Source of the DNA: Terriglobia bacterium
Lineage (GTDB): Bacteria > Acidobacteriota > UBA6911
Length of the DNA: 64,000 nt
NCBI GenBank assembly: GCA_020072565.1
Contig: JAIQGI010000007.1
Location: 186,001 to 250,000 of the forward strand
Direction of reading: 5' to 3'
Part shown: positions 8,608 through 56,408 of the stretch, piece after piece
How the letters are laid out: each line of letters starts with the position of its first letter
Position numbering within the stretch: position 1 is the first letter of the stretch
Made by a program: the position numbers and the translations under genes
Notes under the pieces: model-generated
Told to the model about the DNA's origin: nothing
Database searches by the model: none
The model's input: only the letters and a program-made list of their open reading frames with translations

Positions 8608-8754
8608 TAACCTGAACTGTTCACGAAGTTGGATGGCAAGCAGAAAAAAACAAGGGAATTGGACGCCGACAAGGTCAAGACTGTCGGAGTCCGCCTGCGT
8701 CTTCCGGCGTCCCAGGATCTGTTTTTGCCATTCACTCATGAATGATCCGGGATA
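8608..8754. repeat. Interspersed TIR/hairpin element, copy D (inverted orientation)
   Basis: Left end TAACCTGAACTGTTCACGAA; reverse complement of the right end reads TATCCCGGATCATTCATGAG, an imperfect inverted repeat. The inner pair is GGACGCCG/CGGCGTCC. Compared with copies C and G it lies in the opposite orientation: its left part equals the reverse complement of their right parts (TTGGATGGCAAGCA with G, TGGCAAGCAGAAAAA with C). Confidence 0.85.
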
Positions 8755-8846
8755 ACGGACTGAGTCCACACAAGATGCAGGACCTCTCGTCCGGTCACGG
8801 CGGTGCTAACCCGTACCCTTGGCGGCCGGGTGAGAGTTTTTTGATA

Positions 8847-8875
8847 TTGCCGAAAGTCTGCTTCTTACCTACAAT
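8847..8875 (+). promoter_or_regulatory. Possible sigma-70 promoter for the small membrane protein gene
   Basis: TTGCCG, a 17-base spacer, then TACAAT. The -10 box is 46 bases upstream of the start codon at 8922. The -35 box is weak, so this is a candidate only. Confidence 0.4.
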
Positions 8876-8921
8876 TGGGGCGGTTCCGGTTTTGCACCAA
8901 TCAATGGACGGAGGCCTTCTC

Positions 8922-9116
8922 ATGTTCCGAAACGGGGTTCTCGCTTTTCTCGGATTGTCTCTGGTCGGTTTGCTCGGATGGATCCTTGTGAGATTTACGC
9001 GACCAATTCTGGGCGTTTCCCATGAAGGGTTCTTGATTTTGACCTTGCTCTCTCTGGCGTTCGTCGTCGCTTTGTGCCTGGTTCAATTGGCTTTTCAGCC
9101 TCGGAAGACTGGCTGA
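8922..9116 (+). CDS. Small two-helix membrane protein, function unknown
   Basis: 64 residues from the ATG at 8922, which has GGAGG seven bases upstream; the open frame extends further upstream but that part crosses repeat copy D and is unlikely to be translated. Two hydrophobic helices (VLAFLGLSLVGLLGWILV and FLILTLLSLAFVVALCLVQL) are separated by a short polar loop, and the tail is basic (QPRKTG). I do not recognise a family. It lies between a repeat and the promoter of the PqqD/HprK module and has its own possible promoter, so it is probably a separate transcription unit. Confidence 0.55.
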   Translation: MFRNGVLAFLGLSLVGLLGWILVRFTRPILGVSHEGFLILTLLSLAFVVALCLVQLAFQPRKTG

Positions 9117-9154: not shown

Positions 9155-9183
9155 TTGACAGCCTGGACTGAGCAGAATATAAT
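9155..9183 (+). promoter_or_regulatory. Consensus sigma-70 promoter of the Tat-peptide/PqqD/HprK operon
   Basis: TTGACA at 9155-9160, exactly 17 bases, TATAAT at 9178-9183: a perfect match to both consensus hexamers. The first gene starts at 9329, giving a leader of about 140 bases that contains no other recognised gene. This predicts strong housekeeping transcription of the four-gene module, separate from sigma-54 control by PrsR. Confidence 0.8.
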
Positions 9184-9328
9184 GAGAGTCACCCCTCACT
9201 TTTAAACATGTTCTATCTGTCTTTGGAATCGTGCCCTGGTAACGGCTTGGACCGAGTGTTCGCGCTTCGACGCGCAACCGGCATGCGCGGGGGCATTCAA
9301 CGAAACATCCTCTTCGGAGAACGCAAGC

Positions 9329-9565
9329 ATGGCTGAGGACATTCTAAAACCCTCGGAAGGCGCAGATACGGACCAGGACGGCGACAAGGCAAGAAACTCG
9401 CCGAACGATAGTGTGTCACGGTCCCGCCGCGGACTGATGAAAGCCGGTCTGATTGCTGCACCTCTCATCCTGACCCTCAAGAGTCGCCCAGCGTTAGCGG
9501 CGGGCCCTAACAATAGGGTAAGCAGGTTTTCGGTTGGCAAATCTCACCATCCTTACGGAAATTGA
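9329..9565 (+). CDS. Short Tat-leader peptide, candidate substrate of the PqqD/HprK module
   Basis: 78 residues. An acidic, low-complexity N-terminal part (residues 1-30) is followed by SRRGLMKAG at 32-40, a twin-arginine-like motif, then the hydrophobic stretch LIAAPLILTL and an Ala-x-Ala cleavage-like site (PALAA, about 54-58). That would leave a mature piece of about 20 residues rich in Ser, Arg, His and Asn. The ATG has GGAGA about nine bases upstream. It is followed after three bases by a PqqD-like gene and then by an HprK-like kinase and a nucleotidyltransferase. PqqD-type domains bind leader peptides, so this is the obvious candidate peptide substrate; that is inference. An alternative is a small exported protein with no modification. 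Confidence 0.7.
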   Translation: MAEDILKPSEGADTDQDGDKARNSPNDSVSRSRRGLMKAGLIAAPLILTLKSRPALAAGPNNRVSRFSVGKSHHPYGN

Positions 9566-9568
9566 GGC

Positions 9569-9862
9569 ATGGCTGAGGAGCTGCTTCGGTGGCACATAAC
9601 GCAGGGCTGCCGGCTGCTGTGGCGGGGATGGGATGATGAATTCGTCGTCTACAATACGGGCTCCGCGGATACCCACGTCCTTGATCATCCCTCAGCCGCA
9701 ATGCTCAAGGCCCTGGAGGGATCACCACTCACGTCCAAACAGCTGACTGAGTCGCTCCGTTTCAAACTGGATGTGGATTCCAAAGAAGACCTCTCATCTT
9801 TCGTGTCGACTCTGCTTCAGAAACTTCATGAATTGGGCCTGATCGAGTCTGCACCGCGATGA
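9569..9862 (+). CDS. PqqD-like peptide chaperone of the HprK-related kinase A system
   Basis: 97 residues, the size of stand-alone PqqD/RRE proteins. The pattern of an N-terminal beta part (FVVYNTGSADTHVLD) then helices (PSAAMLKALEG, LTSKQLTESL, LLQKLHELGLIE) fits the winged-helix PqqD fold. Family knowledge: PqqD-like domains hold the leader of a precursor peptide and present it to a modifying enzyme. The gene starts three bases after the Tat-leader peptide gene and its stop overlaps the kinase start (ATGA), so the three are translationally linked. The first 13 bases around its start codon (GCATGGCTGAGGA) repeat those of the peptide gene. Confidence 0.82.
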   Translation: MAEELLRWHITQGCRLLWRGWDDEFVVYNTGSADTHVLDHPSAAMLKALEGSPLTSKQLTESLRFKLDVDSKEDLSSFVSTLLQKLHELGLIESAPR

Positions 9863-10785
9863 GAATTGGCGAATTGTCACCCCCAGAGCTTGCGCATCGG
9901 CTCAAACACCAGGGCATCTGCCTGCAAACAGGCCCTTTTTTGATTCACATTCAGACACCACTGCCGCTGGTAGCCCGGGTCCTTCAATTTCTGTACGCTG
10001 ATTTCAGTCTCGAGGACACGCACGAACTTGTGGATTTTCATATCCGTTTGGACCGGCCGAAGGGTGTTCGTCGCTGGCTGCGTCGGCAGGCGCAATTCTA
10101 TCTTGATGGGCGCGCCCCTTCCCATCCGATGCCCCTGCGCCTGGCAGTGCCGCTTCTGGAATGGGGCATGAACTGGTGCGTTGCCGAACAGGTGCATCAG
10201 TTTCTGGTCATTCATGCTGCAGTAGTCGAAAGGTGGGGCCGCGCGATGATGATCGAGGCCCCACCGGGCTGTGGCAAGAGCACGCTTTGTGCGGCACTCG
10301 TTCATCGCGGATGGAGGCTCTTTTCGGATGAGCTCGCGCTCATAGGGCTGGTTGATCCCCGCATCGCCCCTCTGGCGCGGCCGATTGGCCTCAAAGACGA
10401 ATCGATCGGCATCATCCGCGACTTTGCCCCTGAAGCCGTGATCGGTCCCGAGTGGCACGAAACCCACAAGGGTACGGTCGCGCACATTCGTCCTCCCTCC
10501 GATGCTGTTCAGCGCGCTCATGAAACATCGTTGCCTGCCTGGATTGTCTTCCTGACCTACAAATCCGGAGCCGTTCCCAAGCTCGAGCCCGTGCGCAAGT
10601 CGAGGGCTTTCCTGCGGGTCGCTGACGCCGCATTCAATTACACTGTTCTTGGCGAACGGGGGTTCGAGACCGTGGCGCGCATGGTAGATGCGTGCGATTG
10701 CTACGAGTTCAGTTACGGGAATCTGGAAGAGGCGGTCCAGGAGCTTGCGCGCCTGAAACCGGATGCCGGCCTGGCACCGCGGTGA
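9859..10785 (+). CDS. HprK-related kinase A
   Basis: 308 residues. A Walker A motif APPGCGKS at 134-141 is preceded by HAAVVE (His119) and followed by FSDELALI (Asp157-Glu158), the arrangement of HPr kinase/phosphorylase-like P-loop enzymes. It lacks the long N-terminal domain of true HprK, and no HPr gene is nearby. Related small kinases act on peptide substrates in some lasso-peptide clusters; the phosphoacceptor here may be the Tat-leader peptide or a saccharide, which the sequence cannot decide. It overlaps the PqqD-like gene by four bases and is followed three bases later by a nucleotidyltransferase. Confidence 0.85.
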   Translation: MRIGELSPPELAHRLKHQGICLQTGPFLIHIQTPLPLVARVLQFLYADFSLEDTHELVDFHIRLDRPKGVRRWLRRQAQFYLDGRAPSHPMPLRLAVPLLEWGMNWCVAEQVHQFLVIHAAVVERWGRAMMIEAPPGCGKSTLCAALVHRGWRLFSDELALIGLVDPRIAPLARPIGLKDESIGIIRDFAPEAVIGPEWHETHKGTVAHIRPPSDAVQRAHETSLPAWIVFLTYKSGAVPKLEPVRKSRAFLRVADAAFNYTVLGERGFETVARMVDACDCYEFSYGNLEEAVQELARLKPDAGLAPR

Positions 10786-10788
10786 GCT

Positions 10789-11871
10789 ATGTTTGATTCG
10801 GAAAACCTGCTGCTCAAGGCTCTGCGCGATCCGCAGATTTCATGCTCTTTTACCATAGGCGAATGGGATGTGTGTCTGCGGCAGGCGAGTCGTTCCCGCG
10901 TTTTGGCGCGGTTCTGCATCTTGCTCGACCAGGACGGACTCCTCTCCGCCCTGCCTGCCAAGGTTCGTCAACACCTGGAATCTGCACGCATGGTTGCTAC
11001 CCACTACGAACGGGCCCTCCGCTGGGAAGTAAACCGTCTCGAGGTCGCCCTCGAATCTCTGGACATCCCGATGGTCCTGTTGAAGGGAGCGGCCTACGTC
11101 GTGGCCCAATTGCCGCCGGCCCGAGGCCGCCTCTTTTCCGACATCGATATCATGGTCCCGAGGGACATGATCGGGCTCGTCGAGTCAACCTTGCTCCAAC
11201 GCGGCTGGGAGCCTGCCGAACTGGACGCGTACGATCAGCGCTATTACCGGACCTGGATGCATGAACTGCCGCCGCTCAGGCACCGTGAGCGCAAGGCCGT
11301 CGTCGACGTTCATCACAATATCCTGCCCGAAACCGGCCGGCTGCATCCTGATCCACGCCTGTTGCTGCAATCCGCCCAAGCTGTGGCGGGAACCCGTTTC
11401 AAGGTGCTGGCGCCCACCGACATGGTGCTTCACAGCGCCGCGCATATGTTTCAGGACGGCGAGCTGGCCGGCTCGCTGCGCGATCTTACCGACCTCGACG
11501 ACCTGTTCCGGCATTTTGGCGGCCGTGCCGGCTTTTGGGACCAGCTCGCACCTCGAGCCGGAGAGCTGGATCTGAGCCGCCCGCTTTTCTACGCTCTGCG
11601 TTGCGCCCGGTATTTCTTCGCCACACCCTCGCCGCGGCAGGTCGTAGCCGCTGCCGCTCAAGCTGCGCCACCCAAACCGATCCTGCACCTGATGGATGCT
11701 CTGGTCCGACGCGCCTTGATTCCGGCAGCTCCCGATAGCACGCCGTGGAAAACCGCAGCCGCGCGCTGGCTGCTCTACGTCCGGTCGCACTGGCTTCGGA
11801 TGCCACCCCTTCTTCTGGCCCGCCACTTGTGCAGGAAGAGTCTGCGCCGTTTCGATGCGCGGGCGGCCTAG
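10789..11871 (+). CDS. Nucleotidyltransferase family protein (NTP_transf_5-like)
   Basis: 360 residues. MVLLKGAAY at 96-103 followed by RLFSDIDIMV (Ser117-Asp118-Ile119-Asp120, metal-binding DxD) is the signature of the large nucleotidyltransferase-fold family that accompanies HprK-like kinases. Later helical regions contain HSAAHMFQDGE (histidines near 206 and 210) and a C-terminal basic segment. It is the last gene of the four-gene module, three bases after the kinase. Members next to peptide kinases have been linked to further modification of phosphorylated peptides; a role on the same substrate is inferred from linkage. It is convergent with the deacetylase gene, with only 38 bases between them. 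Confidence 0.82.
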   Translation: MFDSENLLLKALRDPQISCSFTIGEWDVCLRQASRSRVLARFCILLDQDGLLSALPAKVRQHLESARMVATHYERALRWEVNRLEVALESLDIPMVLLKGAAYVVAQLPPARGRLFSDIDIMVPRDMIGLVESTLLQRGWEPAELDAYDQRYYRTWMHELPPLRHRERKAVVDVHHNILPETGRLHPDPRLLLQSAQAVAGTRFKVLAPTDMVLHSAAHMFQDGELAGSLRDLTDLDDLFRHFGGRAGFWDQLAPRAGELDLSRPLFYALRCARYFFATPSPRQVVAAAAQAAPPKPILHLMDALVRRALIPAAPDSTPWKTAAARWLLYVRSHWLRMPPLLLARHLCRKSLRRFDARAA

Positions 11872-25073: not shown

Positions 25074-26957
25074 ATGAACCGCATTTGCGGTCTGGTTTCA
25101 AGCGACCTTCAAGCCTCACAAATGCACGCGTTGCTGGGTGAGATGCTCAGGAGCCTTCCTCTGCATCCAGGCAGCGGAACAAGTTTGGAGGTACAGCGCG
25201 CCGAGGCGGCCCTCGGCGCGCACCAGCAATTTGAGGCGGGAGCCACACCTCCAGCTGCAGGCAGTTGCCTCCTTGACCGAGAGGGTCTGACAATTGTATG
25301 CAGCGCTGAGATATATAGTATTAACGGGACAAGGTACCAGGAACAGCGCCCAGAAGCTGAAGTACTGGCGGAACTCTATCGCAGACATCGTAAGGACTGC
25401 GTGAGGCGCCTGCGCGGTGTGTTCGCCATCGCTATTTGGGATTGGGACAAAAAAGTTTTGTTGCTTGCAACAGATCCGTTTGCTGTACGGACGCTCCATT
25501 ACTATGCGGATCGCGAAATCCTGGTTTTCGGCTCGCGCATCAACGCGATTCTCAAGGCGCCTATCGTTCCCCGAGACATCCACCCCGATGCGATCTATCA
25601 ATATATTTACCATAGCTGCATTCCCACACCGAACACCGTTTATCGGGATATCAAGAAGCTGCCGCCCGGCCACCTTCTGTTATTTTCCAGGGAAGGTTCC
25701 TACCTCGAACGCTACTGGCGCATGAGTTATGAGGAGGAACGCGGAAGGGATCTCGAGTATTACGCTTCTGGAGTTCGAGATCACGTTTTACGGGCTGTTC
25801 GATCACAGGCGAAGTACGGAAACAATACCACGGGGGTTGGGTCCTTTCTGAGTGGAGGAACAGACAGCAGCACGGTCAGCGGAATGCTGGGGCAGGTACT
25901 GCAGAAACCCGCGCCTACTTTTTCAATCGGATTCAAGGAGCACGGTTTCAACGAGATAGAGTATGCCCGCATTGCAGCGCGTCACTTTGGCACAGACTAC
26001 CACGACTATTTCGTCAGTCCCGAGGACACGGCCAAAATAATCCCAGAACTCGTATCAGCCTATGATGAGCCTTTCGGAAACGCCTCTGCGGTACCTGCAT
26101 ACTACTGCGCCAAACTCGCGCACGACGCCGGCATTGAAACTTTGCTGGCCGGCGACGGTGGGGATGAATTGTTCGGTGGTAATACCCGATATGCCACGGA
26201 CAAGGTCTTCGAGGTATATCAAACCTTGCCCCACTGGCTGCGCACGCGCTGCCTTGAGCCAATTGTTCTCGGCATACCAGTGCCGGAACGTGGTGTTCTT
26301 GGAAAGGCAAGGAAATACATGCGCCGCTCCAACCTCCCTCAGCCCATGCGCTTTTTCTCCTATAACCTCCTCTATACTGTGGATCCCCACGAGATTTTTG
26401 CGGACGACTTCCTCTCAACGCTCACGGGGGATCCCGGACTTGAAGTGGCAGCCAGACATTACGAGGATGTACCTGCCACATCGATGCTCAACCGCCTGCT
26501 TCATGTCGATCTCAAGATTACAATTACCGACAATGATCTCCGGAAGGTTACCCGGATGTGCGAATTGGCCAATGTGAAGGTCCGATTTCCAATGCTTGAT
26601 CTTGAGTTAGTCGAATTCAGCGGAAGGATTCCCGCAGATCTGAAAGTAAGAGGATTCGAAAAGCGCTTTATTTTCAAAGAAGCCTTCAAAAACTTCCTTC
26701 CGCAGGAGATACTCAGAAAGAAGAAACATGGATTCGGACTCCCCGTGAGCGCCTGGCTCCGTGAAGATCCGCACCTGAACCAATTGAGCCAAGATACTCT
26801 ACTCAGCAAATCGTCCCTGCAGCGGGGATACTTCAGACCCGCCTTTCTGCGTAAACTCTTTGCGCTCCACGGAACCGACCATACCAATTTCTTCGGCGAC
26901 AACATCTGGGTTTTTCTAATGCTCGAACTGTGGCATCAGGCACAGCATCCAGATTGA
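25074..26957 (+). CDS. Asparagine-synthase-type amidotransferase
   Basis: 627 residues. The N-terminal glutaminase domain starts MNRICGLV, so the nucleophile Cys is at position 5 rather than 2 and would need removal of the first four residues to become N-terminal. Later marks include RLRGVFAIAIWDWDKK and DPFAVRTLHYY. The synthetase domain has the PPi loop SGGTDSS (260-266), ATFSIGF-like strand and GDGGDELFGGNTRY. It would make an amide on a sugar acid or amino-acid-like carboxylate using glutamine. Its stop is one base from the next start (TGAAATG), so it is in an operon with the deacetylase. Confidence 0.9.
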   Translation: MNRICGLVSSDLQASQMHALLGEMLRSLPLHPGSGTSLEVQRAEAALGAHQQFEAGATPPAAGSCLLDREGLTIVCSAEIYSINGTRYQEQRPEAEVLAELYRRHRKDCVRRLRGVFAIAIWDWDKKVLLLATDPFAVRTLHYYADREILVFGSRINAILKAPIVPRDIHPDAIYQYIYHSCIPTPNTVYRDIKKLPPGHLLLFSREGSYLERYWRMSYEEERGRDLEYYASGVRDHVLRAVRSQAKYGNNTTGVGSFLSGGTDSSTVSGMLGQVLQKPAPTFSIGFKEHGFNEIEYARIAARHFGTDYHDYFVSPEDTAKIIPELVSAYDEPFGNASAVPAYYCAKLAHDAGIETLLAGDGGDELFGGNTRYATDKVFEVYQTLPHWLRTRCLEPIVLGIPVPERGVLGKARKYMRRSNLPQPMRFFSYNLLYTVDPHEIFADDFLSTLTGDPGLEVAARHYEDVPATSMLNRLLHVDLKITITDNDLRKVTRMCELANVKVRFPMLDLELVEFSGRIPADLKVRGFEKRFIFKEAFKNFLPQEILRKKKHGFGLPVSAWLREDPHLNQLSQDTLLSKSSLQRGYFRPAFLRKLFALHGTDHTNFFGDNIWVFLMLELWHQAQHPD

Positions 26958-35673: not shown

Positions 35674-36864
35674 ATGAAAATCCTGTTTGTCTGTCACCGC
35701 TTGCCCTATCCGCCTGAAAGAGGGGGTAAGATCCGGCCGTTCAACATGATCCATTGGCTCCATGACCACGGTCATGAGGTGACGGTAGTGTCGATCGCGC
35801 GCTCCAAGCAGGAGCTTGAGAAAGGAAAGGGCCTTTATGCATTTTGTCATCGATATGACGCCGCGCTGATTTCACCGCTCCGAGGGTGGCTCCAGGCGGC
35901 GCTCTTCGCACTGAGCCCACTTCCCTCTTCGCTCGGCTACTTTTACGTTCCGGGGCTGCGCGAGAGGGTCCGCCGTATCCTTCAGAATGAGCGTTTTGAC
36001 ATGCTCTGGGTGCATTGTTCATCGGTCGCCCAATATGTGCTCGATCATGATTCCTGCTACCGGGTCATGGACTTCGGGGACATGGACTCCGAGAAATGGT
36101 TCCGATTTGCACGCCAGCGGGCCTTCCCCTTATCCCTCGGGTATCAGATGGAAGGGATCAAGCTCCGGCGCTATGAGGAGCGCCTGGCGCGCGCCTTCAA
36201 CTGCTGCACCGTCGTGTCCCGGGCGGAAAAACGAACGCTGGACACGTTCGGCTTCCCCGTTTCCGTGACAGTCATCCCGAATGGAGTGGACATCGATTAC
36301 TTCAACAATCCCACGGGGAACTACGATCCTCGGACTCTGATTTTCCTTGGACAGATGGATTATTACCCCAATGTGGACGCGGTGGAGTATTTCTGCAACG
36401 CCATCCTCCCGCTCATCCGGCGAGAACTGCCGGATGTCCGGCTCCAGATCGTCGGCAACAGCCCGAACCGTCGCGTGCGCAATCTCGCTCGTATTCCCGG
36501 AGTTGAAATCACGGGGCCCGTTCCCGACGTTCGTCCGTACCTGATCAAGGCCGCAGTGAGCATCGCGCCGCTGCGGATCGCATGCGGCATTCAAAACAAG
36601 GTGCTTGAATCAATGGCCATGCGCGTGCCGGTCGTGGCTTCTTCCGGCGCCTTCGACGGCATCACCGCCGTTGAGAACGAGGACCTTCTCGTGGACGATT
36701 CCCCTGAAGGTTTCGCCTCCAAAGTCGTGGCCCTGTTGAACGATCCCGCCCTGCGAGACAGGATAGCTGATGCGGGGCGGCGGAGGATCGAACGGTCCCA
36801 CACCTGGCCGGCATGCCTGGCGGTCTTGTCCGAACTCCTCATTGAAAGCGCCAGGTCTCACTAG
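35674..36864 (+). CDS. Stp1-type glycosyltransferase (TIGR03087 family), copy 1
   Basis: 396 residues. MKILFVCHRLPYPPERGGKI is the N-terminal mark of the exosortase-linked sugar transferase family; later DFGDMDSEKWFRFARQR, VIPNGVDIDYFNNP, GQMDYYPNVDAVEYF and GIQNKVLESMAMRVPVV match it. GT-B fold, retaining type expected. RBS GAGAAGG five bases before the ATG. Two further relatives lie at 36910-38178 and 53322-54521. Confidence 0.93.
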   Translation: MKILFVCHRLPYPPERGGKIRPFNMIHWLHDHGHEVTVVSIARSKQELEKGKGLYAFCHRYDAALISPLRGWLQAALFALSPLPSSLGYFYVPGLRERVRRILQNERFDMLWVHCSSVAQYVLDHDSCYRVMDFGDMDSEKWFRFARQRAFPLSLGYQMEGIKLRRYEERLARAFNCCTVVSRAEKRTLDTFGFPVSVTVIPNGVDIDYFNNPTGNYDPRTLIFLGQMDYYPNVDAVEYFCNAILPLIRRELPDVRLQIVGNSPNRRVRNLARIPGVEITGPVPDVRPYLIKAAVSIAPLRIACGIQNKVLESMAMRVPVVASSGAFDGITAVENEDLLVDDSPEGFASKVVALLNDPALRDRIADAGRRRIERSHTWPACLAVLSELLIESARSH

Positions 36865-39499: not shown

Positions 39500-40366
39500 G
39501 TGAGGGAGGAGGTTTTGTCTAAGCCCGGTAGCATGCCGCCGACCTGCGGAGGGGATGCGGGCCCGGACCATCCGGGCCGCGACGGGTTTTATGAGTACTA
39601 CGCACGGGCCAGCCAGAGCCCGCAAACCCTGCAGCGCTTTTATTCGGTGCGCGACGTCATCCTGCGACTGCTGGCCCACCGGCATATGCCCACAAACTGC
39701 CTGGAGGTTGCAGACATCGGCTGCGGAGCCGGCACCCAAGCGATGATCTGGGCAGGCATGGGACACAGGCTTCATGGTCTGGATACCAACGGCCCTTTGA
39801 TTGAGCTGGCAATCGAAAGGGCCGCCAAATCCGGCCTGCAAATCGATTTCCGCGTCGGTTCGGCGGAAAGACTCCCCTGGGAAGATGAATCCATGGACGT
39901 CTGCCTGGTGCCCGAACTCCTCGAACATGTGCAGAACTGGCGGGCATGCATTGGCGAGTTCGCTCGCGTGCTGCGGCCGGGCGGCATCATGGTTCTATCC
40001 ACGACCAACAAGCTCTGTCCCGTGCAGATGGAATTTGACCTGCCGCTTTATAGTTGGTATCCGCGCAGGCTGAAGAAACGCTGCGAGCGGCTGGCGCTGA
40101 CGAAACGCCCGGAACTTGTGAACTTCGCGAAGTATCCGGCGGTGAACTGGTTCAGCTTCTACAGTCTGCGTTCCGTGCTGTCACCGCTCGGCTTTCGCTC
40201 CTTCGATCGTTTTGACGCCATGGATCTCTCGCGAAAAGGTCCACTGGCGAAATTCGTGCTCTCGGGAATCCGGGCGGTTCCGCTCCTGCGTTGGCTGGCA
40301 CACGTCGCCACACCTGCCACACTCCTGTTTGCAGTCAAGAGTGATGATGCGAACTTCGAGACCTGA
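39500..40366 (+). CDS. SAM-dependent class I methyltransferase
   Basis: 288 residues from a GTG at 39500; an ATG at 39533 is an alternative behind a strong GGAGGAGG. EVADIGCGAGTQAMIW is SAM motif I, HGLDTNGPLIELA motif II and EDESMDVCLVPELLEHV motif IV. The C-terminal part has aromatic/basic patches usual for sugar or lipid O-methyltransferases. It lies 12 bases from the dehydrogenase, so methylation of a uronate or hexose is possible. Followed, with overlap, by the Stp2-like gene. Confidence 0.87.
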   Translation: MREEVLSKPGSMPPTCGGDAGPDHPGRDGFYEYYARASQSPQTLQRFYSVRDVILRLLAHRHMPTNCLEVADIGCGAGTQAMIWAGMGHRLHGLDTNGPLIELAIERAAKSGLQIDFRVGSAERLPWEDESMDVCLVPELLEHVQNWRACIGEFARVLRPGGIMVLSTTNKLCPVQMEFDLPLYSWYPRRLKKRCERLALTKRPELVNFAKYPAVNWFSFYSLRSVLSPLGFRSFDRFDAMDLSRKGPLAKFVLSGIRAVPLLRWLAHVATPATLLFAVKSDDANFET

Positions 40367-41639
40367 AACAGGGATAAATGCAGCCGCGGTCGATCACCTG
40401 CAAGAAGTGCCATCGCGTGCGGATGTGCGCCCGATGGTTGCGGGAACTGCAGGAAGGCCCGTTCGAAGACAATCGGTTAGAATCGTGCACGTTTTACATT
40501 CCTTCGGGATCGGCGGTTTGGAGAATGGTGTTGTAAACCTGATCAACTTCCTCGATCGCGAGCGCTACCAGCATGCACTCCTTTGTGTGACACGCGCGGG
40601 ATGCCTGGTGAAGAGGCTGCGCCGGCAGGATGTGGAGGTCATTGAACTGGGAAAAGACGAGGGGCAGGATTGGCGCCTGCCGCTGAAGATGGCACGCGAG
40701 TTGAGGCGCCTGAAGCCGCTGATTGTCCACACCCGCAACTGGGGAACGATCGACGGCATTATCGCAGGCCGCCTGGCCGGGGTGCCGGTCGTCGTGCACG
40801 GCGAACATGGCCGGACCATGCTCGAAATCGGCGAAGGCAGCCGCAAGCGGAAATGGGTCAGGAAGCTGCTGGGACCCATGATTGATGCCTATGTGACTGT
40901 TTCGGAGGAGCTGCGCGTTATCGCCAGAGACGACATCGGAATTCCGGATCGAAAGATCGCCACGATATGCAACGGCGTGGATCCGGCCAGGTTTTCGTTC
41001 GAGGTCGATCGGCGCTCCGTGCGGGTCGAGCACGGAATTCCCGTCGACGCATTCGTAATCGGCGGCGTCGGCAGGCTTGACCCGATCAAGAACTATGAAA
41101 GCCTTATCCGGATTCTGCCCCTCCTTCTGCAGGACTTTCCCGGCCTGCGACTCCTGATCGTGGGGGATGGACCCCAATACTCCGTTCTGGACGGATTGAG
41201 ACGGGAACTGGGAGTGGCAGATCAGGTGATACTTGCAGGCCCTCGTGACGACGTCCCTAAGATGCTGAAAGTGATGGATGTGTTCGTCCTGCCTTCCTTC
41301 TCGGAGGGCATCTCCAATACGATCCTGGAAGCCATGGCAAGCAGCCTGCCCGTGATTGCGACGCGGGTCGGCGGCAATATCGAACTGGTCCTGCACCGCG
41401 AAACCGGGTTTCTGGTCGATCCCGGGAATCCATCAGAGACGTACGAAGCGATCCGAGCCTATTTGACGACTTCCCGCCTTGCGCAGGAGCATGGCTCGGC
41501 GGGAAGGAACCGGGTGGAGAGTCATTTCTCGCTTGGCAGGATGGTGGCCGCTTACGACACGTTGTATCGCGATTTATTGAGAAGGAAACACGTCCTGCCT
41601 TCTGGTTTTCAGAACGGCTCGTTCGTTGATGCCCAATAA
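40344..41639 (+). CDS. Stp2-type glycosyltransferase (TIGR03088 family)
   Basis: 431 residues from the ATG at 40344 (MMRTSRPETG), or 40347; an ATG at 40434 is also possible since the enzyme core starts VRIVHVLHSFGIGGLENGVV. Core marks: VHTRNWGTIDGIIAG, ICNGVDPARF, VGRLDPIKNYESL and GISNTILEAMASSLPVIAT. It is the second of the two exosortase-linked glycosyltransferase types and follows the methyltransferase with a 23-base overlap. Confidence 0.92.
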   Translation: MMRTSRPETGINAAAVDHLQEVPSRADVRPMVAGTAGRPVRRQSVRIVHVLHSFGIGGLENGVVNLINFLDRERYQHALLCVTRAGCLVKRLRRQDVEVIELGKDEGQDWRLPLKMARELRRLKPLIVHTRNWGTIDGIIAGRLAGVPVVVHGEHGRTMLEIGEGSRKRKWVRKLLGPMIDAYVTVSEELRVIARDDIGIPDRKIATICNGVDPARFSFEVDRRSVRVEHGIPVDAFVIGGVGRLDPIKNYESLIRILPLLLQDFPGLRLLIVGDGPQYSVLDGLRRELGVADQVILAGPRDDVPKMLKVMDVFVLPSFSEGISNTILEAMASSLPVIATRVGGNIELVLHRETGFLVDPGNPSETYEAIRAYLTTSRLAQEHGSAGRNRVESHFSLGRMVAAYDTLYRDLLRRKHVLPSGFQNGSFVDAQ

Positions 41640-41648
41640 GGGAGTGCC

Positions 41649-43538
41649 ATGCCTCATTTGGTAGGCATCTGGAGTCCGGAGAGCAGCGAGCAAGCCATTA
41701 GCGCCTGCTTGGCAAAGCAATTGGAGCGGATACGGATCCCCAAGGCCCCCGGCGTCGATTATCTTGCGGTGTACCCCGGTTTCGGCATGGCCATCCAGGA
41801 TCCGGGTATTCTGGAGAACGGCCCCCAGCCGGCGAAGTCGGAGGACGGAAGGTTTGCCCTGCTCCTCGACGGTGAGATATGGAACTCAGAAGAGCTGTCC
41901 CGGCAATTCCGCCGCGTCTTGCCCCCCGGCAGGATTCTGGGGCCGGAACTCTGTTTGCGTCTTTTTATGCAGCAGGGTACCGAAGCTCTCCACTTGTTCA
42001 ACGGCGTTTTCTGTATCGTTCTCTATGACTGCAAAGACAGACGCCTCACGATCTGCACCGACCGCTACGGATTTCGCTCGGTATTTTATGTCCGGCGGGC
42101 AAACACGCTTCTGTTCGCGACCGAGTTGAAGGCACTCGCTGCCGTAGATCCCGGCAAGCGGGTGCTTGATGATGTCGGCATATTGGAAAGTTATTGCTAC
42201 GGCACACACTTCATGGAGCGCACCTGGCTCGAAGGCTATTGGCGGCTCCCCCCGGCATCGATTTTGTCCCTGTCTGCAGGCGAGTTCAATACTCGCACCT
42301 ACTGGATCTATAGATACGATGAAGCGTCCAAGCCCTTGGATCAGCCTACCTGCTTTACTGTTTACGGCAAATTGCTTGACCGTGCCGTCGAACGCTGCAT
42401 GAGGGGATCGAGGAGGATCGGCATTTTTTTGAGCGGAGGATACGACAGCAGGGCGGTCGCGGCATGCATCCGCAGCCACCATCTTCCCCTGCCCGCCTTC
42501 ACCTTCGGGCACCCGTCCTGCCGTGATGTGCGATTCGCGGGCATGCTTGCCGAGAAGCTGGGGCTTGAACATCACGCGCTCACGGATCAGGGACCTTATT
42601 TGTTTGCCAATTGTCCTTCAATCGTGTGGCGCACCGAAGGGCTGACCTCATTTGCGGTCACAACCTCCATCCGCTACCATGCGATCCTGAAAGAACACAT
42701 GGACATTTTCCTCACCGGATTCCTCGGTGAATTCGGCGGATCGCACACTTGGCCGCAGCTCCTTATGGCCCGCACAAGAGGTGCCGCAATGGCAGCGATC
42801 TTCAATAGGTACGTCGCGCCTCGTTTGACAGCTGCGCGCCGCATCTTTGATGGGGGCTTTCTCAAGACGACGGAGGAGGCACTTCGAAGCCGTTTCTCGC
42901 TGAGCTTCGAGAAGGTTTCCAATGACCGCCCGCTCAACATCGCCGACGCCTGGAACCTCATCAATCTCCAGCCTTTCTCGACCTGGCACACCACCTCCAT
43001 CGATCGCTATCTGCTCGAGGTCCGTCCGCCCCATCTGGATTTCGACCTGGTAGAGTTTCTCTTGACCATCCCGCCCCGTGCCCGGCTGGAACAGCGCATC
43101 TACAAGAAAATGATAGCCTACAGCTTTCCGGCCATCCGACACGTACCATGCACCAACGACGGTCTTCCCATCAATCCAAACTTTCCTTCCGCATACGCTG
43201 GTATGACTTTGAGGTTTATCGAAAGAAAAGTCCTGGCGCATGTGTCTCCAATCTTTTCCACGCAGCCGTCCCTGGGTCGTGAATCCCAAAGCCTTGCCGA
43301 CGACCTTCGTTCCGAGCCCGACCTGATCACCAAGTTGCTGAACCCTCTGCTGAAACAGGGAGTTTTTCCGTCGACGATATTTGACCATAAGGGGATCAAG
43401 AAGATCGTCTCCGAGCACTATGAGCGCGGAAAAAACCACGAGGCTATTCTGGCCAGGCTCATTTCATGGGCGCTCGCCGCCAGGTACTTCTATTACGACG
43501 ACCTTGCCGTTCCACCAGCTTTGCTCGAAACACCATGA
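41649..43538 (+). CDS. Asparagine-synthase-like protein lacking the glutaminase cysteine
   Basis: 629 residues. The N terminus is MPHLVGIWSP: there is no Cys at or near position 2, so the amidotransferase domain, although recognisable (LLDGEIWN, FNGVFCIVLYDCKDRR, ICTDRYGFRSVFY), should not hydrolyse glutamine. The synthetase domain has PPi loop SGGYDSR at about 262-268, with Arg where true synthetases have Ser. GFLGEFGGSH and PHLDFDLVEFLL follow. Cyclases of lasso-peptide pathways and some polysaccharide-locus homologues share such losses; here it may activate a carboxylate for attack by another amine. RBS GGGAG five bases before the ATG. Confidence 0.85.
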   Translation: MPHLVGIWSPESSEQAISACLAKQLERIRIPKAPGVDYLAVYPGFGMAIQDPGILENGPQPAKSEDGRFALLLDGEIWNSEELSRQFRRVLPPGRILGPELCLRLFMQQGTEALHLFNGVFCIVLYDCKDRRLTICTDRYGFRSVFYVRRANTLLFATELKALAAVDPGKRVLDDVGILESYCYGTHFMERTWLEGYWRLPPASILSLSAGEFNTRTYWIYRYDEASKPLDQPTCFTVYGKLLDRAVERCMRGSRRIGIFLSGGYDSRAVAACIRSHHLPLPAFTFGHPSCRDVRFAGMLAEKLGLEHHALTDQGPYLFANCPSIVWRTEGLTSFAVTTSIRYHAILKEHMDIFLTGFLGEFGGSHTWPQLLMARTRGAAMAAIFNRYVAPRLTAARRIFDGGFLKTTEEALRSRFSLSFEKVSNDRPLNIADAWNLINLQPFSTWHTTSIDRYLLEVRPPHLDFDLVEFLLTIPPRARLEQRIYKKMIAYSFPAIRHVPCTNDGLPINPNFPSAYAGMTLRFIERKVLAHVSPIFSTQPSLGRESQSLADDLRSEPDLITKLLNPLLKQGVFPSTIFDHKGIKKIVSEHYERGKNHEAILARLISWALAARYFYYDDLAVPPALLETP

Positions 43539-53321: not shown

Positions 53322-54521
53322 ATGAACCTACTTTACCTCTGTCATCGGATTCCCTACCCTCCTGACAAAGGTGACAAGATCCGATCTTTTCATCAGATCC
53401 GGCATCTTGCGCAACGCCACAGAGTGCATTTGGCGTGCATGATCGACCAGGTCGAGGATCTGCAGGGCATAAACGAGCTCAAACACTATTGTGCTGCTGT
53501 TGACACTGTCTACCGCAGCTCATCGTCAGCGAAAACCGCAATCCTGGCCGCCCTGCTGACCAACAAGTCGCTCTCGGTAGCGTCTTTTCACTCGAAGCAA
53601 CTACAGAAAAAAATCGCCGAACGCCTGGCTTCCGAGCACTTTGACAGAATATTTGTCTTTTCTTCGACCATGGCAGAGTATGTCTGGGATGTAAATCACA
53701 TTCCGCGCATCATGGATTTTGTCGACGTGGATTCCGAAAAGTGGCGCGATTATGCCGGCTATCATTCATTCCCACGGTCACTGATTTACCGGCAAGAAGC
53801 GGTTCGCCTGGCGCACTATGAAGAGCGCATCTCCCTGAATTTCGACCATTCGATATTTGTTTCTGAAGCGGAAGCCAACCTCTTTAGGAGAAGGATCAAC
53901 CACAGGCCCATCTCTGTGGTTCCCAACGGCGTGGACTTCGACTACTTTGCGCAGCGCGTTGCCAGTCCGGTCCTTGCGGACGGTCCCGTCATCATTTTCG
54001 TGGGGGCAATGGACTACTTTCCGAACATAGATGCGGTTCGTTACTTCTGCAAGGACATCTTCCCTCTGGTGCGGAAAAGCAGGCCGGAGGCGCGTTTTTA
54101 TATCGTGGGAAGCCGCCCCGCGCGCGAGGTTATCAGGCTGGGCCGAATCGCCAATGTCAAGGTAACCGGGTGGGTCCCCGATGTGCGCCCCTACCTGGCG
54201 ATGGCGTCCGTATCCGTCGCTCCGTTCCGGATCGCCCGGGGCATTCAGAACAAGATTCTCGAAGCCATGGCATCGGGGGTTCCGGTCGTTTCGACCTCAC
54301 GAGCGGTTCAGGGAATCGGAGCCTCCGAGAAAGACGGCCTCAGAATAGAAGACGAGCCAGGTGCTTTCGCCCGGCAGATCCTGCGCCTGTTGGACGCGCC
54401 GCAACTCGGCGAAGAGTGTGCCCAGCATGCCCGAGACTACGTCTGCATTCATCACCAGTGGCAGCAGATTGGAAAGCTGATCGAGGATATCCTCCAGGCC
54501 GTGCCGGCGCCCAGGAGCTGA
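53322..54521 (+). CDS. Stp1-type glycosyltransferase (TIGR03087 family), copy 3
   Basis: 399 residues. MNLLYLCHRIPYPPDKGDKI opens the protein; DFVDVDSEKWRDYAGYHS, VVPNGVDFDYFAQR, GAMDYFPNIDAVRYF and GIQNKILEAMASGVPVVST align with copy 1 at 35674-36864 through the whole length. The two were probably produced by duplication. Ends the plus-strand block, converging on the amidotransferase gene with nine bases between stops. Confidence 0.94.
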   Translation: MNLLYLCHRIPYPPDKGDKIRSFHQIRHLAQRHRVHLACMIDQVEDLQGINELKHYCAAVDTVYRSSSSAKTAILAALLTNKSLSVASFHSKQLQKKIAERLASEHFDRIFVFSSTMAEYVWDVNHIPRIMDFVDVDSEKWRDYAGYHSFPRSLIYRQEAVRLAHYEERISLNFDHSIFVSEAEANLFRRRINHRPISVVPNGVDFDYFAQRVASPVLADGPVIIFVGAMDYFPNIDAVRYFCKDIFPLVRKSRPEARFYIVGSRPAREVIRLGRIANVKVTGWVPDVRPYLAMASVSVAPFRIARGIQNKILEAMASGVPVVSTSRAVQGIGASEKDGLRIEDEPGAFARQILRLLDAPQLGEECAQHARDYVCIHHQWQQIGKLIEDILQAVPAPRS

Positions 54522-54530
54522 ACGGGAGCC

Positions 54531-56408
54531 TCATCCGACTTCAGGAGCGAAGCGCTGCAGCCACAATCGGAACATTAAGATACTCCACAGCTCGTTGGAG
54601 CGGTCTCTGACTCGAGACTGGTGTTGGTCCCACATCTTGCTGATAAATGCGGAGTTGAGGAAGGGATCTTTCCTCCCGATCAGGAATTCCCGGGCATAAT
54701 CATGGATCCCGGACCGGAACCAATCTGCAAGAGGAACACCGAAACCCATCTTGGACCGATGGATAATGTTGTCCGGCAGGCATCCCTGCATCGACTTCTT
54801 GAAAAGGTACTTGCCGGTTCCTCCATTGAGCTTCAATCTGGAGGGCATCCTTGCCACCAGGCCCATCAACACGTGATCCAGCAGCGGGCATCGGACTTCA
54901 AGGGAATTGGCCATGCTGGCACGGTCCACCTTGGTAAGGATGTCGTCGGTGAGATAGGTCTTGATGTCGAGGTACTGGATCCGTGAGAGGGGATCGGCCG
55001 TACCTGCCCTGTCGTAATGCTCACGAAAGACCTCTATGGTCTGATAATCCTTGAGACGAGCCTTCAGATCGTCCGACAAAATAGAGGGCTTTTCGTAGCC
55101 GCGGAATGTCGACATGCTCTCAAAATAGCCCTCCAGAGCATCATGAGCCAGGCTCTGGAAAGTCGTTTTCGCGCGGATGAACCGGGGCGCCCAGTCCATT
55201 TTAGGATACATCCTGCCCAAGGGGCCGAAAACCGGCCTTCTCAGCCACAGAGGCATGACGGCCCTCAGGCGATTTTCCTGCTGGTCGAAAAAGTAGCGCC
55301 GATAGCCGGCAAAGTTCTCGTCACCGCCATCGCCGCTGAGACAAACGGTGACTTTTTCGCGGGCCACCTGGCTGACAAAGTAGGTGGGAAGCGCCGAAGA
55401 ATCTGAAAAGGGCTCGTCATAGTGCCAGACCAGTTTCTCGATGGTGCCGATCTTCTCCGGAGTCACAACGCGCTCGTGGTGATCGCTGCCTAAATGCCTG
55501 GCCACCTGGCGGGCATAAGCGGATTCGTCGAAAGAATCCTCGGCAAAACCGATAGTGGCAGTCTTCACGGGCTGTTTGAGGATCTGGCTCATCACGAAGA
55601 CCACTGCCGATGAGTCGAGCCCGCCGGACAGGAATGCTCCCAGCGGCACCTCGCTCATCAGCCTGATGTCCACCGCGGTTCTCAATTCAGCCAGGAACAT
55701 TTCGAGCCATTGCTTTTCGGAGAACTCTACGTCCTCGGCGAATTTGAGATCCCAGTAGGGTATTTCCCGCAGGTTGGGTCCCTCAAATTTAAGATAATGT
55801 CCCGGCCGCACCTTGTGGATCCGGCGGTAGATGGACTTGGGCGCCGGAACGTAACCCAGTGAGAGATAGTCGCTGACGGCGTCCTCACGGATTTCGAGCC
55901 GGAGTGCCGGGTGGCAGAGAATCGATTTGATCTCGGAACCAAAAACCAGTTTTTCATCGTCCAGGTAGTAAAAGAGAGGCTTTTTACCCACACGGTCCCG
56001 GGCCAGGATCAGTGTTTGCCTGGCCTGGTCCCATAATCCGAATGAAAACATGCCTCGCAGTTTTTCGATGAAACTATCCGGATATTGCTCGTACAGGTGA
56101 ACGACGGTCTCCGTGTCGGTACGGGTCCGAAAGTCGTGATGGCCTTTCAGCCCTTCCCGAAGTTCCTGGAAGTTGTAGATTTCGCCATTAAAGGTTATCC
56201 ATATGCTGCCGTCCTCATTACTGAGAGGCTGGCGGCCAGTACTCAGATCAATGATGCTCAGGCGGCGGTGGCCCAAAGCGGCCTGCCGGCCCACATAGAC
56301 GCCGGATTCATCCGGCCCCCTGTGCCGCTGGATATCGGACATTTTGCGGACCACGAGCTCGTCGATCGGTCTCCCGTCAAAATAGTAAACGCCGCAAATT
56401 CCACACAA
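54531..56408 (-). CDS. XrtA-associated amidotransferase 1 (asparagine-synthase type)
   Basis: 625 residues from a GTG at 56408 with AGGAGGT eight bases upstream. MCGICGVYYFDG places the nucleophile Cys at position 2; IQRHRGPDESGVYV, HRRLSIIDLSTGRQPL, FNGEIYNFQELRE and GMFSFGLWDQ give a complete glutaminase domain. SGGLDSS at about 260 is an intact PPi loop, and GDGGDENFAGYRRYFF follows. Family TIGR03108 type. It makes an amide on a carboxylated EPS component using glutamine. Only gene on the minus strand between 20 and 64 kb. Confidence 0.94.
   Translation of the reverse strand: MCGICGVYYFDGRPIDELVVRKMSDIQRHRGPDESGVYVGRQAALGHRRLSIIDLSTGRQPLSNEDGSIWITFNGEIYNFQELREGLKGHHDFRTRTDTETVVHLYEQYPDSFIEKLRGMFSFGLWDQARQTLILARDRVGKKPLFYYLDDEKLVFGSEIKSILCHPALRLEIREDAVSDYLSLGYVPAPKSIYRRIHKVRPGHYLKFEGPNLREIPYWDLKFAEDVEFSEKQWLEMFLAELRTAVDIRLMSEVPLGAFLSGGLDSSAVVFVMSQILKQPVKTATIGFAEDSFDESAYARQVARHLGSDHHERVVTPEKIGTIEKLVWHYDEPFSDSSALPTYFVSQVAREKVTVCLSGDGGDENFAGYRRYFFDQQENRLRAVMPLWLRRPVFGPLGRMYPKMDWAPRFIRAKTTFQSLAHDALEGYFESMSTFRGYEKPSILSDDLKARLKDYQTIEVFREHYDRAGTADPLSRIQYLDIKTYLTDDILTKVDRASMANSLEVRCPLLDHVLMGLVARMPSRLKLNGGTGKYLFKKSMQGCLPDNIIHRSKMGFGVPLADWFRSGIHDYAREFLIGRKDPFLNSAFISKMWDQHQSRVRDRSNELWSILMFRLWLQRFAPEVG

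Follow-up and report, generated by a model that had tools for sequence, protein, structure and literature searches.

The HPr-rel-A system of bacteria is accompanied by a family of precursors with a twin-arginine (Tat) leader, and this precursor family is real, widespread and apparently undescribed. Since the same gene arrangement recurs across many bacteria, the product is probably a peptide or protein of a kind not yet described, chemically decorated inside the cell and then exported, and a named but unexplained enzyme family would gain with it a specific substrate and a candidate acceptor residue. One such arrangement is found in the stretch of DNA analysed here (64 kb, referred to as the window), where a Tat-leader peptide precedes a PqqD-like protein, an HprK-related kinase and a nucleotidyltransferase (Table 1).

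Table 1. Features of the operon and of the exopolysaccharide (EPS) region in the window
Feature	Position	Strand	Basis or remark
Promoter, sigma-70-type, TTGACA-17-TATAAT	9155-9183	+	12/12 consensus bases
Tat-leader precursor peptide, 78 aa	9329-9565	+	leader profile; equivalent ORF 5' of PqqD/HprK elsewhere
Predicted mature part, 21 aa	9500-9562	+	cleavage inferred from ALA/AG
PqqD-like protein, stand-alone RRE type	9569-9862	+	TIGR04353, PF05402
HprK-related kinase A	9859-10785	+	TIGR04352
PF14907 nucleotidyltransferase	10789-11871	+	193 bits, cut-off 31
Glycosyltransferase	35674-36864		TIGR03087
Glycosyltransferase	53322-54521		TIGR03087
Glycosyltransferase, TIGR03088-like	40212-41639		392.9 vs 409, just below cut-off
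XrtA amidotransferase-like	54531-56408	-	809 vs 817, just below cut-off

The operon and its surroundings in the window

An earlier note on this DNA had described the four genes as an operon with gaps of 3, –4 and 3 bases (in the order peptide, PqqD-like protein, kinase, nucleotidyltransferase) behind a perfect promoter, and all of these were found again on the plus strand. A TTGACA-(16 to 18)-TATAAT sequence without mismatch occurs at this one place in the 64 kb, with 0.01 expected from shuffled sequences. A search for a terminator 3' of the operon in the window gave no convincing candidate. A small ORF 5' of the promoter, at window positions 8923-9116, codes for about 64 residues that likely form two membrane helices; read as a longer ORF (8742-9116), it matched no family in Pfam and NCBIfam. 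A 13-base exact direct repeat, GCATGGCTGAGGA, is found at 9327-9339 and 9567-9579, 240 bases apart, and spans the start codons of the peptide gene and of the PqqD gene; it could be the trace of an old duplication or deletion, or chance.

The acidic start, the twin-arginine-like motif and the Ala-x-Ala site that the earlier note had read in the 78-residue peptide were all seen. As read from the sequence, its layout is an acidic n-region (residues 1–32), SRRGLMK, an h-region and ALA/AG, so that the twin-arginine motif, the hydrophobic stretch and the AxA site of a Tat substrate are all present; cleavage is predicted after residue 57, leaving AGPNNRVSRFSVGKSHHPYGN as the mature part. Neither Pfam nor NCBIfam has a model that hits the peptide at E<=1. 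A leave-one-out leader profile, made from other genomes with the window row excluded, gives the window leader 51.8 bits and the runner-up ORF of the window 5.4 bits, and by this measure the peptide is a genuine gene and a chance ORF is ruled out. When the 7.5-Mb genome was scanned with a profile that includes the window row, the one strong leader match was that of the window, with the next place at 15 bits. The Ser of SRFSV is a candidate acceptor in the mature part, but the assignment is uncertain, because these 21 residues are devoid of the Cys usual in relatives. As a relaxed motif also arises in 14% of shuffles of AGPNNRVSRFSVGKSHHPYGN (p 0.14, not significant alone), the case for a motif rests on the relatives.

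The PqqD-like protein (TIGR04353, 68 bits vs cut-off 35; PF05402, 25.3 vs 23.4) and the kinase (TIGR04352, 376.4 bits vs cut-off 200) thus belong to families that are already named, as the HPr-rel-A system. The window kinase retains the P-loop GCGKST, H119, D157-E158, K179 and N260, and these positions (with the P-loop as GxGKST) are conserved at 98–100% in 115 sequences. It resembles HPr kinase in the P-loop region, but with a TIGR00679 score of 20 bits vs a cut-off of 240 it is far from qualifying as an HPr kinase/phosphorylase. A structure of the kinase predicted from four sequences (pLDDT 40) was too poor for use. The nucleotidyltransferase is likewise intact in KG (99–100), DxD (118, 120) and Asp173, and K99, G100, D118, D120 and D173 are identical in all 85 sequences compared; its model (pLDDT 80) has weak structural matches to ANT(2'')-Ia, JHP933 and MenT3-type folds and is consistent with a Pol-beta-type fold. 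PDB sequence searches with this protein and with the PqqD-like protein returned nothing useful. Near several kinases a nucleotidyltransferase was sought and went undetected, so it may be an optional part of the system.

XrtA/PEP-CTERM-type EPS genes, spanning 35674-56408, share the window with the operon. Many kinase loci have genes of this type no more than a few kb away, and two loci from the window's phylum (L081 and L082) adjoin XrtA/EpsI homologues; near many other kinase loci EPS genes were looked for and are absent. The link to an EPS locus drawn in the earlier note is common, but not universal. Three asparagine-synthase-type genes are found in the EPS region of the window (25074-26957, 41649-43538 and 54531-56408); in a family scan of the last of the three, its protein scores 259 vs 525 as a lasso cyclase and 809 as an XrtA amidotransferase. 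In some Burkholderiales-type loci a protein with TPR and Sulfotransfer_3 domains is encoded directly 3' of the kinase (L169:4935-6713, L172:5142-6878), and in L169 the PF14907 gene comes after it; a sulfotransferase gene has been reported in lasso clusters (PMC8498205).

A dedicated Tat-leader gene in other genomes

The conserved small leader ORF which the earlier note had proposed to look for upstream of other PqqD/HprK pairs, and whose absence from homologous loci would have spoken against its reading, was found in two samples of loci. A genome-contig scan with the single kinase protein had given three relatives only, and family searches of genomes were used in its place. The first sample comprised kinase loci from the window's phylum, Gammaproteobacteria, Chromatiales genomes and two plasmids (Vibrio and Sphingomonas); all 47 loci with complete upstream sequence, the plasmid loci among them, have a twin-arginine-leader ORF directly 5' of the PqqD/kinase genes, a count that leaves out one locus partly cut (L067) and one cut by a contig end (L071). 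The leader consensus is (S)RRRLxK...A.P...TLxSRPAxA, with RR invariant in 36/36 aligned leaders, and the n-region is extended, with a median of 28 residues, and mostly net acidic (100 leaders). On 44 kinase-negative genomes the leader profile gave four weak matches of 22–24 bits, all in large ORFs of three genomes, vs up to 47 bits in kinase-positive genomes under the same test.

For the second sample the prediction was fixed beforehand: an adjoining leader ORF was expected at every new locus, together with a mature part that has either CxxS[GA] near the start or [CASG]xxS[ILVFA] in the last 25 residues. The sample consists of 57 loci, of which 56 are counted (L176 is cut by a contig end); one, L195 in genome G668, came from a separate family search and not from the main draw. 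An adjacent leader ORF is present at 48/56 loci, in 44 cases recognised by profile score and position and in four (L141, L154, L186 and L192) by eye or at a lower score; in L154 it adjoins the kinase unit in divergent orientation. The motif was strictly as predicted in 43 of these 48, and the five exceptions (L139, L168, L177, L182 and L183) are class-A-like proteins (see below) with altered or offset motifs. Eight genomes have no adjacent leader ORF, and five of them (G887, G928, G940, G979 and G1120) carry an unlinked copy with the same leader, which in G979 has its own PqqD-like ORF; in the kinase-positive G1093, G1066 and G668 no recognisable substrate was found. At a further locus, L132 (G673:C45), the kinase match is interrupted by a TAG and scores under the cut-off, and is likely a decayed copy.

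The mature parts range from 12 to about 245 residues across loci. Most relatives have a mature protein of 90–200 residues instead of a peptide; in those from the window's phylum the mature parts comprise 18–42 residues. Class A mature parts (about 130–200 residues, with no match in Pfam) begin with C[TS]xSGxxSGNxS, followed by CxGxTPGYWK...HAVAAxLNA; the CxxSGxxSGN element sits just after the signal, and its Cys and Ser are invariant. In class B (12 to about 190 residues) the motif C..S[ILVF], for example SCWTSF or TCFASL, is found within the last 25 residues of 39/39 second-sample proteins (0.39 expected from shuffling) and in 5/5 clusters at 40% identity (0.10 expected); a looser motif was present in 19/22 first-sample class B proteins, from which that pattern was itself derived. 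A precursor from Burkholderiales has the form SCWxSF, and the mature part of L164 is ASASTQCDTATASCLDSFNGL, of 21 residues. Leader and CxxS are common to proteins with unrelated mature domains, but CxxS as a universal feature had to be rejected, because a Cys is missing from the mature parts of the window peptide and of L083.

The kinase is above cut-off in 41/369 gammaproteobacterial and 61/398 Pseudomonadota genomes (about 11–15% of sampled genomes), and its co-occurrence with the Tat-leader products is strict. The class A mature domain is present in 34 of the same 369 genomes, 30 of which are kinase-positive, and a full-length domain adjoins the kinase in 29/41 kinase-positive vs 0/328 kinase-negative genomes, the four kinase-negative matches covering only the later part of the domain within larger ORFs. 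The class B profile is matched in 19/20 kinase-positive vs 0/60 kinase-negative genomes. Fisher tests give 8e-34 for class A and 2e-17 for class B, values which ignore kinship between genomes and so overstate significance. Several ORFs of 207–1352 residues (G314:C37, G379, G383, G398 and G514; L113, L115–L117) contain TPGYWK...HAVAALLNA and lack the class A front motif; the shared part is a wider domain. As expected of RRE-dependent RiPPs, a small precursor gene is genetically tied to the modifying genes. It is well supported that the Tat-leader product is the dedicated partner of the PqqD/HprK/nucleotidyltransferase genes, and it is probably their substrate. The reading of the earlier note, a phospho-tailored exported peptide, is partly supported: it stands in this respect, in both samples and in the co-occurrence, and is to be amended in that the product is mostly a protein and that its phosphorylation, further tailoring and export are putative.

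A proposed route of modification and export, and its alternatives

With moderate confidence, the four genes can be read as an HPr-rel-A-type unit for the modification and export of a peptide or protein. The Tat signal of the precursor would double as a leader. Bound to it, and probably also to the long acidic stretch ahead of the twin arginines, the PqqD-like protein would present the precursor to the HprK-like kinase for phosphorylation of a conserved Ser in the mature part, and the PF14907 nucleotidyltransferase would then add a nucleotidyl or sugar group onto that phosphate. Both enzymes would work in the cytoplasm while the PqqD protein holds the Tat leader, a step that we infer by analogy with lasso tailoring and bufferins; a Tat leader fits modification in the cytoplasm ahead of export. 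The decorated, possibly folded product would be exported by Tat, with the leader removed by signal peptidase, and would have an extracellular role, in strains that often possess an XrtA-type EPS locus. PsmK phosphorylates the C-terminal Ser of the lasso peptide pseudomycoidin and PsmN is needed for hexose addition there, although it is unsettled whether PsmN is itself the glycosyltransferase (PMC9266682, PMC8498205). In bufferins, the leader that is recognised can be a Sec signal, and a partner protein perhaps masks the signal until modification is complete (PMC12452194).

The main alternative makes the Tat product a protein of the extracellular matrix or one associated with EPS, and has the enzymes act on another target, such as a polysaccharide intermediate or a regulator, the genes being merely co-regulated. 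Many loci do lie among XrtA/EPS genes, and the class A TPGYWK...HAVAALLNA domain also occurs in larger ORFs of kinase-negative genomes; we nevertheless consider this explanation unlikely, since the association holds outside EPS loci and for unlinked substrate genes, proteins of the PqqD type act as chaperones of peptides, and one leader and CxxS serve unrelated mature domains. Far less probable is that the phosphate on Ser is eliminated to dehydroalanine, which is crosslinked, ahead of Tat export, to the nearby Cys of CxxS as a lanthionine-like ring. Two substrate classes that differ in other ways do both conserve a Cys and a Ser at a spacing of three residues, but no lyase or cyclase gene was recognised in the unit, the Cys is missing from the window peptide and from L083, and a nucleotidyltransferase is unnecessary for such chemistry. 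The least credible reading is that the two enzymes have nothing to do with the peptide and are a regulatory or toxin-antitoxin-like pair, as the weak matches of the nucleotidyltransferase to MenT3-type toxins and aminoglycoside nucleotidyltransferases and the HPr kinase-like P-loop region of the kinase might suggest; against it stand the kinase score of 20 bits, where 240 are required for HPr kinase, and the co-occurrence with Tat substrates.

HPr-rel-A systems may further define a class of ribosomal products that has not been described, with an RRE-bound Tat signal as leader and a conserved Ser, usually that of CxxS, which is phosphorylated in the cytoplasm and capped there with a nucleotidyl or phosphosugar group, export coming afterwards; the substrates would be of any size between a peptide of 12 residues and a whole protein domain. 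We see the arguments for and against this generalisation as evenly balanced. Given the frequency of the kinase in the sampled genomes, often beside EPS genes, the product may shape the biofilm matrix in many environmental bacteria.

Comparison with known systems

The nearest described entity is the HPr-rel-A system itself, since the window kinase and PqqD-like protein exceed the curated cut-offs of TIGR04352 (HprK_rel_A) and TIGR04353 (PqqD_rel_X). These NCBIfam models name the enzymes only and no substrate, and neither Pfam nor NCBIfam contains a substrate family that matches the Tat precursor. The HPr-rel-A family names are not mentioned, and no substrate is described, in the literature searched; searches on PF14907, on Tat with RiPP and on PqqD with exosortase likewise found no description of the system. 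The substrate, which the earlier note had called undescribed, is so in these sources, but the kinase and PqqD families were already named. HPr kinase/phosphorylase is alike in the P-loop region, and differs in its score and in its genetic context.

The lasso peptides paeninodin and pseudomycoidin are comparable in that a kinase, a nucleotidyltransferase and a PqqD-like B1 protein act on a ribosomal precursor, the accepted residue being the C-terminal Ser. By contrast, family models found no B2 transglutaminase-type leader protease among the four operon genes, nor is there an asparagine-synthetase-type lasso cyclase among them; a Tat signal replaces the lasso leader, and the mature parts of HPr-rel-A relatives reach about 245 residues. 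Because protease and cyclase are absent from the unit, a lasso peptide is rejected, in agreement with the earlier note, and by analogy the system would resemble lasso tailoring combined with a signal-peptide leader. It is here that bufferins, which are MNIO-modified RiPPs, are alike: their leader is at the same time a general secretion signal, the gene of an RRE-type partner lies close by, and long precursors occur (PMC12452194). They employ Sec and an iron oxidase, whereas here the signal is Tat and the enzymes are a kinase and a nucleotidyltransferase; if the reading proposed here is true, Tat would join Sec, for which bufferins are the case described so far, among the secretion signals that serve as RiPP leaders.
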